64,000 nt of DNA from Pseudofrankia coriaricola (lineage in GTDB: Bacteria; Actinomycetota; Actinomycetes; Frankiales; Frankiaceae), in contig NZ_MBLO01000210.1 in assembly GCF_001854805.1 (NCBI RefSeq), positions 62,001-126,000 on the forward strand. Direction: 5' to 3'. Under the pieces are notes generated by a model that saw nothing but the letters and a program-made list of their open reading frames with translations, was not told where the DNA came from and did not search any database. The translations under genes and the position numbers were made by a program. Within the stretch, counting starts at the first letter, position 1. Every line of letters begins with the position of its first letter. Of this stretch, positions 15,834-63,087 are shown piece by piece.

Positions 15834-16994
15834 TCACTCTTCCGACAGGATCTCGCGGACGCCGCGGGCTATTTCCAGGTCCTCGCGGGCGGCGATCACG
15901 AAGGTACGGACGGGAGCCCCGGCGGCCGTGAGGTCGGTGTCCTCGCCGGCGGCCGGATCGTGGCCCGCGTTGCGGGCCGGGTCGACGGCGACGCCGAGGA
16001 AGGCCAGGCCGTCGGCCGCGGCGGCGCGGACCTGGGCTGAGCGCTCGCCGACGCCGCCGGTGAACACCAGGGCGTCCAGGCCCCCGAGCGAGGCCGCCAT
16101 CGCCGCGATCCCGGCGCGCAGCCGGTGCAGGTAGACCGCCAGGGCCAGCACCGCGGCCTCCTCCTGCCGACCGGCGCGCTCGACGACGGCTCGCATGTCG
16201 GAGGTGCCAGCCAACGCGGCCAGCCCGGAGGCGTGAAAGAGCGCCTCGGTGAGCTCCTGGGCGCTCATCCCCGCCGATGTCTGCAGCCAGAGCAGCAGCC
16301 CCGGGTCGACGTCACCGGACCGGGTGGCCATGACCAGCCCTTCCAACGGAGTGAACCCCATGGTCGTGTCGACACTCACCCCGTCACGGACGGCCGCGAG
16401 CGACGCGCCCGAGCCGAGGTGGCAGGTCACGACGCGACGAGCGCCGGCGCCGCCGGCAGCGCCCGCGGCGGTCACGAGCTCGGCCGCGCGCCGGGACGCG
16501 TAGGCGTGCGAAAGCCCGTGGAAGCCATAGCGGCGGATGCCGTGCCGCTCCCGCCAGACCGCCGGCACCGCGTAGGTGGCGGCCGCCGGCGGCAGGGTGG
16601 CGTGGAAGGCGGTGTCGAAGCACGCGACCTGGACGGCGTCCGGCAGCACCTCGCACACCTCGCCGAGCGCGGCCAGCGCCGCCGGCTGATGCAGCGGCGC
16701 GAGCGCCGTCAGCTCGGCCAGGCGCGCGGCGACCGCGTCGTCGACACGCACCGGCGCGGTGAACGCGGTGCCGCCGTGCACGATCCGGTGGCCGACGGCG
16801 ACCGGGCCCGCGGCCGTCTCGCCCTGTTCGCCGCGCCGCCGGGCGAGCAGCTCGTCGACCGCCGCGCGGAGCTCCGTGAGGTCCGCGCGGCCGGCGGGAG
16901 CGGCCAGCTCACGCGCGCCGAACAGGGTGTCGTCGGGCGCGACGAGCGCGAGCTTGAGCGTCGCCGAGCCCGCGTTGACCACCAGCACATCCAC
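15834..16994 (-). CDS. ackA: Acetate kinase
   Basis: About 386 aa; it interconverts acetyl phosphate plus ADP with acetate plus ATP. ASKHA-fold motifs are VLVVNAGSATLK at the N-terminus, RYGFHGLSHAY, HLGSGASLAAV, GTSDMRAV and FTGGVGERSAQVR. The canonical NAGSSSLK is changed to NAGSATLK, a mild substitution. The start is uncertain. GTG at 16994 begins at the family's VDVLVVNAG; a TTG at 17024 would add ten residues but falls inside a hairpin. It follows xfp on the same strand, so acetyl phosphate made by phosphoketolase can be used directly for ATP. Two structured hairpins occupy the xfp-ackA gap and may set the ratio of the two enzymes. Confidence 0.93.
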   Translation of the reverse strand: MDVLVVNAGSATLKLALVAPDDTLFGARELAAPAGRADLTELRAAVDELLARRRGEQGETAAGPVAVGHRIVHGGTAFTAPVRVDDAVAARLAELTALAPLHQPAALAALGEVCEVLPDAVQVACFDTAFHATLPPAAATYAVPAVWRERHGIRRYGFHGLSHAYASRRAAELVTAAGAAGGAGARRVVTCHLGSGASLAAVRDGVSVDTTMGFTPLEGLVMATRSGDVDPGLLLWLQTSAGMSAQELTEALFHASGLAALAGTSDMRAVVERAGRQEEAAVLALAVYLHRLRAGIAAMAASLGGLDALVFTGGVGERSAQVRAAAADGLAFLGVAVDPARNAGHDPAAGEDTDLTAAGAPVRTFVIAAREDLEIARGVREILSEE

Positions 16995-17018
16995 GGCGGC
17001 ACCCGTCCCGGTCAGTAG

Positions 17019-17131
17019 GGCCAAAGGAGGCGCGACAATGCTCTTCCTTCGCGCCTCCGGCGGCCTGTTTCGGAAAAACTAGAGGGCCAAAGGGTGTGCG
17101 AAAATGATCTTCCTTCGCACACCCGGCGGCC
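17019..17131 (-). ncRNA. Tandem covarying hairpins between xfp and ackA
   Basis: Two 47-nt units, 17019-17065 and 17085-17131, have the same layout: 4-bp GGCC outer stem, 3x3 internal loop, 9-bp stem, 15-nt loop. The 9-bp stems are GGAGGCGCG/CGCGCCTCC and GGGTGTGCG/CGCACACCC (plus-strand reading). They differ at three positions per arm, every change matched on the other arm. The loops differ at two positions and the remaining bases are identical. On the gene strand the loop begins AAGGAAGA. The copy nearer xfp is followed by CTCTAGTTTTT, terminator-like. This is a structured RNA or palindromic element; I know no named family for it. Confidence 0.6.
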
Positions 17132-17147
17132 GTTGTCCCCAGGATCA

Positions 17148-19697
17148 CTAGTAGGGCCAGACCCAGTCGCGGATCTCGGGCGGGTCCTCGCCGTGCTCGC
17201 GGGTGTAAGCACGGACCCGTAGCCGCTCGTCGACCATCTCCTGGCGGACGTGCGCGGCCCGCGCGCCCAGCGACGGCACCCGGTCGATCACGTCGGCGAC
17301 CAGATGGAAGCGGTCGAGCCCGTTCATCATCACCATGTCGAACGGCGTCGTTGTGGTTCCCTCCTCGATGTAGCCGCGGACGTGGAGATTGTGGTGGTTG
17401 GTCCGCCGGTACGTCAGCCGGTGGATCAACCACGGGTACCCGTGGTGAGCGAAGATGACCGGCCGGTCGGGGGTGAAGAGCGCGTCGAACCGGGCGTCGG
17501 AGATGCCGTGCGGATGCTCGCTCTCGCTCTGCAGGGCCATCAGGTCGACGACGTTCACCACCCGGACCCGCAGCCATGGGAGGTGGCGGCGCAGCAGGTC
17601 CACGGCGGCCAGCGTCTCGAGCGTCGGCACGTCGCCGGCGCACGCCATCACCACATCCGGAAGCCCGTCACCACCGGCGCCGGCGCCACCAGTGGCGTCC
17701 TGGTCATTGCTGGCGAAGTCCCAGATGCCCAGGCCCCGGGTGGAGTGGGCGATCGCCTGCTCCATGGTCAGGTAGTTCAGCGCCGGCTGCTTACCGGCGA
17801 CGATCACGTTGATGTAGTTCCGGCTGCGCAGACAGTGGTCGGCGACCGACAGCAGCGTGTTCGTGTCCGGCGGCAGGTAGACCCGGACGACCTCCGCCTT
17901 CTTGTTGACGACGTGGTCGATGAAGCCGGGGTCCTGGTGCGAGAAGCCGTTGTGGTCCTGCCGCCAGACGTGGCTGGTGAGCAGGTAGTTCAGTGACGCG
18001 ATCGGGCGGCGCCACGGGATCTCGCGGGTGGTCTTCAGCCACTTGGCGTGCTGGTTGACCATCGAGTCGACGATGTGGATGAACGCCTCGTAGCAGGAGA
18101 AGAGGCCGTGCCGGCCGGTGAGCAGGTAGCCCTCCAGCCAGCCCTGGCACAGGTGTTCGGAAAGTACCTCCATCACCCGGCCCGCCCGGGCGAGGTGCTC
18201 GTCGGTCGGCAGGATCTCGCCTTCCCAGACCCGGTCGGTGACATCGAAGACGGCGCCCAGCCGGTTCGAGGCGGTCTCGTCGGGGCCCATCAGCCGGAAC
18301 GTGGTCGGGTTGGCCAGGATGACGTCGCGCAGCAGGTGGCCGAGCACGGTCGTCGCCGAGGTCGACGCGGTGCCGGGCGCCGCCACGTCGACGGCGTAGT
18401 CCCGGAAGTCGGGCAGGGTGAGGTCCCGCAGCAGCTCGCCGCCGTTGGCGTGCGGGTTGGCGCTCATCCGCCGCCGCCCCGCCGGCGCGAGCGCCGTCAG
18501 CTCCGGTCGCGGCCGGCCGGCGGCGTCGAACAGCTCCTCGGGGCGGTAGCCGCGCATCCAGTCGGCGAGTTCGGCGATCCGATCGGGGTTCGCTCGCGCG
18601 TCGGTGATCGGGACCTGGTGCGCGCGCCAGGTCCCCTCGACGGGCTTGCCGGCGACGGTACGCGGCCCGGTCCAGCCCTTGGGGGAACGGAGCACGATCA
18701 TCGGCCAGGCCGGGCGGGGCGCTTCCCCGCCCGCGGCCACAGCGGCCCTGGCCTCGCGCTGGATCCTGGTGATCTCGTCGAGCGCCTCGTCCAGGACGGT
18801 GGCGAGCCGGCGGTGCGCCTCGGCGATACCGGCTGGGCAGCCTCCGGGCGCGCCAGGCTCCGCCATCGTCGCGCGCCCTTCGGCCGGGTCGTCGCCGGCC
18901 TCGGCGGTGACGTGCAGCGGGGCATAGCCGTAGCCGCGCATCAGCGCGTCCAGCTCGGCCTCGGGGATGCGGGCGAGTACGGTCGCCTGCGCGATCTTGT
19001 AGCCGTTGAGGTGCAGGATCGGCAGGACCGCGCCGTCCCGGGCCGGGTCGAGGAACTTGTTCGAGTGCCAGCTGGCGGCGAGCGGGCCGGTCTCGGCCTC
19101 GCCGTCCCCGACGACGCAGGCCACCACCAGGTCGGGGTTGTCGAACGCGGCACCATAGGCGTGCGCGAGGGCGTAGCCCAGCTCGCCGCCCTCGTGGATC
19201 GAGCCGGGCGTCTCCGGCGCGACGTGGCTGGGAATTCCACCCGGAAACGAGAACTGCCGGAACAACCGGCGTATCCCGGCCTCGTCCTGGCTGACCGTCG
19301 GGTAGATCTCGGAGTAGGTGCCCTCGAGATACGCGTTCGCGACGATGCCGGGACCGCCGTGACCCGGACCGATGACGTACATCATGTCGAGGTCACGCGC
19401 CTTGATCACCCGGTTGAGGTGCGCGTAGATCAGGTTGAGGCCCGGGGTGGTGCCCCAGTGGCCGAGCAGGCGCGGCTTGATGTGCGCCGACTCGAGCGGT
19501 TCCCGCAGCAGGGGGTTGTCCAGCAGGTAGATCTGCCCGACGGACAGGTAGTTCGCCGCCCGCCAGTAGGCGTCAAGCAGCGCCACCTCCTCATCCGTGA
19601 GCGGCCCCGCGACGCTGGCGCCGGCGCGGGGCCTTGTTGCCGGATCGGCGGTGGACCTGGCTGGCTGGATGGTGGCGAATTCCGCCGCACCGGTCAT
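17148..19697 (-). CDS. xfp: Xylulose-5-phosphate/fructose-6-phosphate phosphoketolase
   Basis: About 849 aa, a thiamine-diphosphate enzyme that phosphorolytically cleaves xylulose 5-phosphate or fructose 6-phosphate to acetyl phosphate plus an aldose phosphate. Diagnostic motifs are [26 protein letters not shown], the ThDP signature [13 protein letters not shown] and [13 protein letters not shown]. Length is slightly above the usual 790-830 aa because of a Thr/Ala-rich N-terminus. The ATG at 19697 follows AGGAAAGGG; 28 further in-frame upstream codons look untranslated. ackA follows downstream. Together they form a short carbon-conserving bypass giving acetate and ATP. Neither is part of the usual thyX-dapA neighbourhood, so the pair looks inserted there, but codon use is native. 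Confidence 0.95.
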
Positions 19698-61526: not shown

Positions 61527-62084
61527 TCAGACCGACAGGAGGTCGGACTCCTTGGCCTTGAGTAGCTCGTCGATCTGGGCGACATAGCGGTGGGTCGCCT
61601 CGTCCAGGTCCTTCTCCGCCCTGCGGCCGTCGTCCTCGCCGGCCTCGCCGTCCCGGACGATCCGGTCCAGTGCCTCCTTGGCATGGCGACGCACGTTGCG
61701 GACGCTGATCCGGGCGTCCTCGGCCTTTCCGCGGGCCACCTTGACCAGGTCACGCCGCCGCTGCTCGGAGAGCTCCGGGAAGACCACACGGATGATCGAG
61801 CCGTCGTTGCCCGGGTTCACGCCGAGGTCGGAGTCGCGGATCGCCTTCTCGACGGCGGCCAGCGACGACTTGTCATACGGCGTGATAATGACCATGCGGG
61901 GCTCGGGGATGTGGAACGATGCGAGCTGCTGGACGGGGGTGGGCGCGCCGTAGTAGTCGACGAGGATCTTCGAGAACACGGCGGGCGTGATCCGGCCCGT
62001 CCGGATGTTGGCGAAATCCTCTTTGGCGACCGAGACGGCCTTGTCCATCTTCTCCTCGGCCTCGAGGAGTGTGTCGTCGATCAC
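61527..62084 (-). CDS. frr: Ribosome recycling factor
   Basis: A 185-aa factor that, with EF-G, splits post-termination ribosomes. Typical sequence: [56 protein letters not shown] and [21 protein letters not shown]-terminal [18 protein letters not shown]-like end ([16 protein letters not shown]). Start GTG overlaps the pyrH stop (GTGA). pyrH-frr coupling is universal in bacteria. Confidence 0.97.
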
Positions 62085-62860: not shown

Positions 62861-63087
62861 GGGTGGCCCTCTCCCCACAGGGGCCGCCGGAGGTGCGCGC
62901 GTGGAGCATCGCGCCTCCTTTGGCCGCGCCAGCGGCCGTGATGTTCGGCCGGAGGTCTTCGCTGACTGCCAGTCTGCCCCATCCGGGGCCGTCCCTGGTG
63001 GCCCGGCCCCACCGGCGGCAGGTCGCCCGGTCATTTCAGTAGGACTGATGCCCGTGTACGGGCGGGCAACCGGAGACGCGGGGCAGT

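Follow-up and report, generated by a model that had tools for sequence, protein, structure and literature searches.

Two hairpins between xfp and ackA of Pseudofrankia coriaricola are copies of a dispersed small mobile DNA repeat

Small repeats that insert at stop codons within operons are known in actinobacteria from the MIRU of Mycobacterium, which, to our knowledge, have not been described as covarying hairpins. Elements of the IS200/IS605 group insert without duplication. In these elements, hairpins are read in single-stranded form beside a short target tetranucleotide that is chosen by a guide sequence (PMC6006769, in excerpt). In turn, the GTAG REPs are described, in the excerpt of PMC3733652 used here, as high-copy and mostly intergenic palindromes, some of them inside ORFs, whose ends often give the TAG stop codon to the flanking ORFs. 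The TnpAREP transposase of Escherichia coli cleaves at a CT on the 5′ or the 3′ side of the REP and requires both the bulge of the hairpin and the tetranucleotide at its foot (PMC8266576, in excerpt).

The window, that is, the whole stretch of 64,000 nt analysed here, comes from P. coriaricola (positions 62,001–126,000 of contig NZ_MBLO01000210.1; this genome is designated G000). The two hairpins lying between its genes xfp and ackA are copies of a dispersed small mobile DNA repeat, and both probably stem from insertion of a mobile palindromic repeat of Frankia-type bacteria, REP-like and non-autonomous. The features in the window are the following:

17148–19586, minus strand: xfp, phosphoketolase, the upstream gene (Pfam XFP_N, XFP and XFP_C; start from our own gene-calling script)
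18825–18884, minus strand: related second hairpin repeat inside xfp, a 60-nt in-frame insertion
17148–17150, minus strand: xfp stop codon TAG, left junction of copy 1 (this codon is TGA in the eight aligned relatives)
17132–17147, minus strand: left arm of copy 1, TGATCCTGGGGACAAC, immediately 3′ of the xfp stop codon
17085–17131, minus strand: hairpin of copy 1 (nearer xfp), stem GGGTGTGCG/CGCACACCC
17079–17084, minus strand: right end of copy 1, CTCTAG
17079–17147, minus strand: whole copy-1 unit, 69 nt
17066–17078, minus strand: left arm of copy 2, TTTTTCCGAAACA, origin of a T-run seen earlier
17019–17065, minus strand: hairpin of copy 2 (nearer ackA), stem GGAGGCGCG/CGCGCCTCC, with a diverged counterpart at the same place in relative G005
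17013–17018, minus strand: right end of copy 2, CTACTG
15834–16988, minus strand: ackA, acetate kinase, the downstream gene (Pfam Acetate_kinase; start from our own script)
62882–62925, plus strand: diverged family member, intergenic (covariance model, 39.5 bits, E 1.1e-7)

The two 47-nt hairpins are in register on the minus strand, with a spacing of 66 nt and 84% identity over 49 nt. Both consist of GGCC, a 3 × 3 internal loop (GCC–TTT), a 9-bp stem, which could grow by one or two A-U pairs, and a loop that opens with AAGGAAGA; between the 9-bp stems, GGGTGTGCG in copy 1 and GGAGGCGCG in copy 2, there are three differences, each with its compensating change. A first-pass annotation, made from the sequence alone, had described this two-copy tandem with its 66-nt period and shared architecture, the three compensated differences and the start of the gene-strand loop, and had named the neighbours as phosphoketolase and acetate kinase genes; alignment and folding bear out the tandem, the stems and loop read as described, and Pfam supports both neighbours. 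The 151-nt stretch with both hairpins folds with −67.4 kcal/mol (z −3.0), and 1 of 200 shuffles was equally good. For ackA there is an alternative longer frame opening at 17024.

The 11.2-Mb genome contains 85 sequences that fit a strict pattern derived from both copies (46 and 39 on the two strands), and the reversed pattern, used as a control, has 0 matches. The covariance-model scan that had been proposed with the annotation was run with a model built on 29 copies from the own genome; it gives at least 150 matches in this genome, a lower bound, the weakest listed having E 3.1e-11, as well as matches in relatives from one family only. At E 0.01, 17 of the 41 genomes formed by G000 and 40 relatives have a match, all 17 in the same family, and there is no match among the 16 of these genomes that belong to other families. 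With stricter filters, a sample of the class yielded matches at E 1e-4 in 10 of 296 genomes, all from the same family. A match in an Acidobacteriaceae MAG (L186) has no paired stem and is probably fortuitous. Plasmid and phage collections gave no match with the 138-nt locus as query, and a search of the locus against Rfam found no family above its gathering score (the overlapping match reached 22 bits, where 53.7 would be needed). Literature searches among open-licence PMC papers found no paper on this repeat, and the excerpted text of a paper on Frankia insertion sequences (PMC2770080) makes no mention of it.

Eighty genome stretches (0.79 Mb) around listed copies were examined, with some further copy-bearing contigs outside this set; they contain 138 copies in 105 clusters, as found by the loop motif, which misses diverged copies. 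Single copies make up 81 of the clusters; 88 clusters are intergenic, nine lie within a called gene and eight are at the edges of the examined DNA. Draft contigs C14, C40, C56, C65, C255, and C265 begin no more than 100 bases from a copy, so that further copies may hide in assembly breaks.

The repeat had been sized as a 47-nt hairpin, which is real, but the unit that moves is larger: the conserved DNA comprises the left arm TGATCCTGGGGACAAC, the hairpin and the right end CTCTAG, amounting to 69 nt, and the period of head-to-tail copies is mostly 66 or 69 nt. Searched by itself, the left arm occurs 74 times exactly in the genome and 92 times when up to two mismatches are allowed, versus two for the reversed control. 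Outside the unit, the left flank shows the consensus CCnYYAG among the 62 clusters with a GATCC arm (C in 85% at position −23, A in 81% at −18 and G in 87% at −17). The ends of the unit are not inverted repeats of each other, since TGATCC... and CTAGAGGGCC... differ, by eye, beyond the TAG. Likewise, the left and right 6-mers are identical in 3 of the 51 clusters usable for this comparison (those with AG at both ends, the remaining 54 being excluded), where about two are expected, and there is therefore no sign of target duplication. A MITE derived from a DDE-type insertion sequence would also be small, non-coding, high in copy number and different in presence among relatives, but the lack of terminal inverted repeats and of a target duplication makes this origin very unlikely. 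The shared consensus of target and right end (CCnYYAG and GGCCCTCTAG), the absence of duplication and the head-to-tail tandems of 66–69 nt would all suit a unit borne on a circle and inserted by an IS110-type enzyme or a tyrosine or serine recombinase into a short target like its own right end; we nevertheless consider this unlikely, because it explains less well the conserved pairing of the hairpin and its internal loop.

Variants of the unit occur as well. The subfamily with GGAGG stems has a different left arm. An extra module (CAGATCGCTTCGCGATCCGGCAGGAACCCC or alike) stands between left arm and hairpin at L096:6964, L123:4184, L070:2714 (minus strand), L191:975 (minus strand), and L196:803 (minus strand), and it is expanded in L096. 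The copy at L123:5043 is without the inner hairpin, its left arm being followed by GGCCGCCGG and then by CCCTCTAG, a form that replication slippage across the stem would leave.

Comparison of the xfp-ackA gap with eight aligned relatives showed copy 1 in none of them and copy 2 in one, G005, where it scores 52.9 bits with the covariance model; the other matches in the stretches from the eight relatives have E 0.26 or worse. Two other loci gave near-precise empty sites. At L081:8293, GCCGTTAG is followed by CGACTCC in G005, and in G000 the unit is flanked by TTAG and CACTCC; at L072:13143, the gene of G005 ends with CTGACGAGCTGACG, and in G000 the unit stands before CTGACGAGCTGACG. The unit of this second locus is absent from G006 too, with a changed flank. 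At two of the three L091 sites, divergence of the intergenic DNA left the empty sites untidy. The first-pass annotation had offered two readings of the pair, one of which, two landings of a mobile palindromic element at this place, is borne out by the at least 150 copies, by their varying presence among relatives and by the near-precise insertions. The best reading of the copy pair is one recent and one older insertion.

The other reading, control of the phosphoketolase/acetate kinase ratio, is not supported in view of the relatives and of about 100 other loci that carry the repeat in both orientations. Of the marks of a structured cis-regulatory RNA, the covarying stem is found here, and a conserved position beside orthologous genes is not (0/8 relatives for copy 1 and 1/8 for copy 2). 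A cis-acting RNA, either a riboregulator or an mRNA stabiliser, that tunes phosphoketolase versus acetate kinase would accord with the covarying stem and conserved loop and with a position between two genes of the same pathway, some 30 nt before the start called for ackA, but we regard it as most improbable: copy 1 is missing in 8/8 relatives and copy 2 in 7/8, the many other loci have the repeat with (23) or against (37; p 0.09) their co-directional neighbours, the gene strand shows no G-U preference, and no Rfam family exceeds its gathering score.

Some related sequences were seen in the same comparisons. At L081:4295-4342 of G000, a PrmC/HemK-like gene, named by eye, contains an older in-frame copy of the main repeat; this copy is also in G005, and is absent from G006 and G004. 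The insertion at 18825–18884 (minus strand) in xfp amounts to 20 codons and is absent from the seven relatives that align there (G002 does not align); the inserted repeat has 14 other matches with E 1e-3 or better in the examined G000 stretches, some of them partial and two in called genes. In the xfp-ackA gap of G006 (L159), the end of xfp, TCTGGCCSTRCTGA, occurs three times in tandem, with no hairpin there.

The strength of the hairpin and its frequent placement exactly at gene ends would also fit a dispersed intrinsic terminator, or a 3′-end mRNA stabiliser, amplified by chance. We consider this very improbable, as TTTT occurs within 14 nt downstream in 1/103 clusters on the hairpin strand and 0/103 on the other, a terminator scan of the locus, which allows loops of 3–8 only, gave none, and 11 of the 88 intergenic clusters lie between divergent genes. 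The T-run reported after the copy nearer xfp is indeed present, but corresponds to the left arm of copy 2 and is not shared by the other clusters. Another 17 clusters are between convergent genes, and the avoidance of divergent gene pairs is not significant (11/88 versus 92/550, p 0.35). The repeat thus does not look like a terminator, a gene-specific RNA switch or a dedicated metabolic switch, and it may have a stabilising side effect.

Among 137 copies with the standard geometry, the 9-bp stem is perfect in 108, with 16 different stem sequences; the stem of copy 1, GGGTGTGCG/CGCACACCC, is the commonest in the copies examined and is perfect in 33/137. The GCC/TTT internal loop is kept in 118/137 and fully paired in one, at L065. 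We counted 46 double-sided changes in 28 sequences from several genera, versus 15.8 (sd 2.8) after shuffling, and 36 versus 11.1 in 29 copies of the own genome; free variation is confined to four pairs, and the remainder is inflated by relatedness. In both sets, the cells paired, the double-sided changes and the covariation score were reached by 0/500 shuffles, and in the 28 sequences the structure beats slid versions of itself in these three measures. There was no excess in the number of pairs with a double-sided change (4 in both sets, versus 3.4 for the own-genome copies and 4.1 for the 28 sequences after shuffling) or in further pair types (11 in both sets, versus 11.4 and 13.3, respectively).

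Since the compensatory change is real and genome-wide, the fold matters. This part of the argument for a fold selected at the RNA level stands, but RNA-level selection on the gene strand is not supported by the wobbles: the non-Watson-Crick stem cells of the gene strand comprise 23 A-C or C-A, 9 G-U or U-G and 9 other mismatches (23 versus 9, p 0.02 with all copies; 19 versus 9, p 0.087 with distinct copies). If anything, this pattern points, as a weak preference, to the strand opposite to the genes, and a fold of single-stranded DNA is at least as likely as one of RNA. Compensatory changes could also arise unselected, by template switching between the arms of the hairpin, and the copy at L065 with a fully paired internal loop is what such arm correction would give. 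However, the GCC/TTT mismatch is retained in most copies though the same process would remove it, which argues against mere arm-to-arm copying, and we deem this explanation quite unlikely.

The motif YYAG holds stop codons in both directions, TAG on its own strand and TGA, TAA or TAG on the other. A gene reads toward the element in 77 of the 88 intergenic clusters not at edges, and in 35/77 the end of the element is exactly the stop of the facing gene (11/40 on the left and 24/54 on the right), a number that may include shortened genes because a gene running into the element can end there by construction. The same DNA contains 385 CCCnYYAG sites outside elements, of which 260 lie in coding sequence, 16 at stops and 109 in intergenic or other positions, and the insertions are distributed as 35 at stops, 53 in other intergenic positions, nine within called genes and eight at edges. 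The odds ratio for insertion at stops versus other intergenic positions is 4.5 (p 8e-6), with gene calls from our own codon-usage script; this enrichment is partly circular, since the element can create a stop where a gene is called to end. At five of the eight aligned sites (xfp, L081:8293, L072:13143, L072:4309, and L091:9292) the element end is at the stop of a gene, and in 5/5 of them the readable genes of relatives stop, by eye, at that very codon, which is TGA, TAA or TAG (TGA in relatives versus TAG in G000 for xfp), indicating that the unit keeps or restores the stop.

A search for the Y1 REP transposase domain PF01797 gave no match in G000, a 280-contig draft, or in the copy-bearing genomes G001–G006, G009, and G011. 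The domain was positive in 6/25 genomes, with the controls positive in 5/14; the copy-bearing G007, G008, and G015 have one or two Y1 genes each, and G016, G018, G021, G023, and G024 were outside this test. The covariance model finds no match next to the Y1 genes in G007 and G015 (L126 and L127). A Y1 transposase was thus set aside as the mobiliser, being not found in G000–G006 and with weak matches near the Y1 genes of 10 loci, the best of which (E 0.019, in a genome from outside the family) covers the hairpin foot only. In the seven intervals between neighbouring copies, no transposase gene was recognised by eye. Contig C1 of G006 shows no replichore bias (8:6 versus 16:16, p 0.75, among 46 listed loci and leaving out contig C2), with dnaA at C1:1410373 and the terminus assumed half-way, in rough agreement with 20 skew samples; this counts against a lagging-strand route, which might give such a bias.

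On the strand opposite to the genes at this locus, the unit begins with CTAGAG and then GGCC, and ends with GGATCA before the target CTRR. We suggest that a folded single strand of the REP-like repeat would be moved by an enzyme that reads the hairpin, with its conserved 3 × 3 internal loop and its loop. On this same strand, the enzyme would cut in front of CT, both between element and target (...GGATCA/CTRR) and at the element start (/CTAG), so that both putative cut points precede CT, much as REP transposases cut. The junctions offer TAG to genes on either side, and the facing gene keeps its length at the sites compared; the copies between xfp and ackA would be passengers, and any effect on ackA expression incidental. 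It is conceivable, although we hold it doubtful, that this is a Frankia-type element read as a hairpin and moved by an enzyme distinct from the REP transposases known so far, which targets the stop motif YYAG and leaves stops at both junctions, being harmless at gene ends, with loop and internal loop as recognition marks.

No metabolic switch need be postulated to account for this striking pair of hairpins, whose case shows that covarying stems outside coding sequence can be the sign of a mobile element. The near-exact insertions at stop codons offer a testable case in which target and ends together spare host proteins. Moreover, several many-copy genomes, one of them in two contigs, gave no match to the usual REP transposase, a situation comparable to that of the CGTC REPs, which are without an associated transposase.

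The MIRU differ from the repeat described here in sequence and target. IS200/IS605 elements resemble it in that their hairpin is read as a single strand, as proposed for the repeat, and in the absence of duplication, but they have a hairpin at each end, whereas the unit found here has a single one and no transposase gene within it. The CGTC-tagged REPs and the Rickettsia palindromic elements are similar in having no associated transposase and in lying in part inside ORFs, as does the repeat inserted in xfp, although the CGTC REPs have stems of 8–9 bp and loops of 4–5 nt, and no CGTC tag is present here (PMC3733652, in excerpt). With the GTAG REPs, the repeat shares a palindrome in high copy number (at least 150), mostly extragenic (88/105 clusters intergenic), and an element end that gives a TAG stop to flanking ORFs (35/77 eligible clusters). 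It differs in that GTAG is at the 5′ foot of their hairpin, while here CTAG stands two bases from the foot; in the 16-nt left arm that moves along with the 47-nt hairpin; in its head-to-tail tandems, as most GTAG families have few or no head-to-tail dimers according to the excerpt of PMC3733652; and in that a cognate Y1 transposase (RAYT/TnpAREP) was not found in G000. We call the repeat REP-like, and not a REP, because the GTAG foot and the Y1 transposase, two defining features, were looked for and not found. The likeness extends to the E. coli REPs, whose stem has a conserved unpaired region where the repeat has its 3 × 3 internal loop and whose cleavage at CT is matched by the putative cut points proposed here (PMC8266576, in excerpt).
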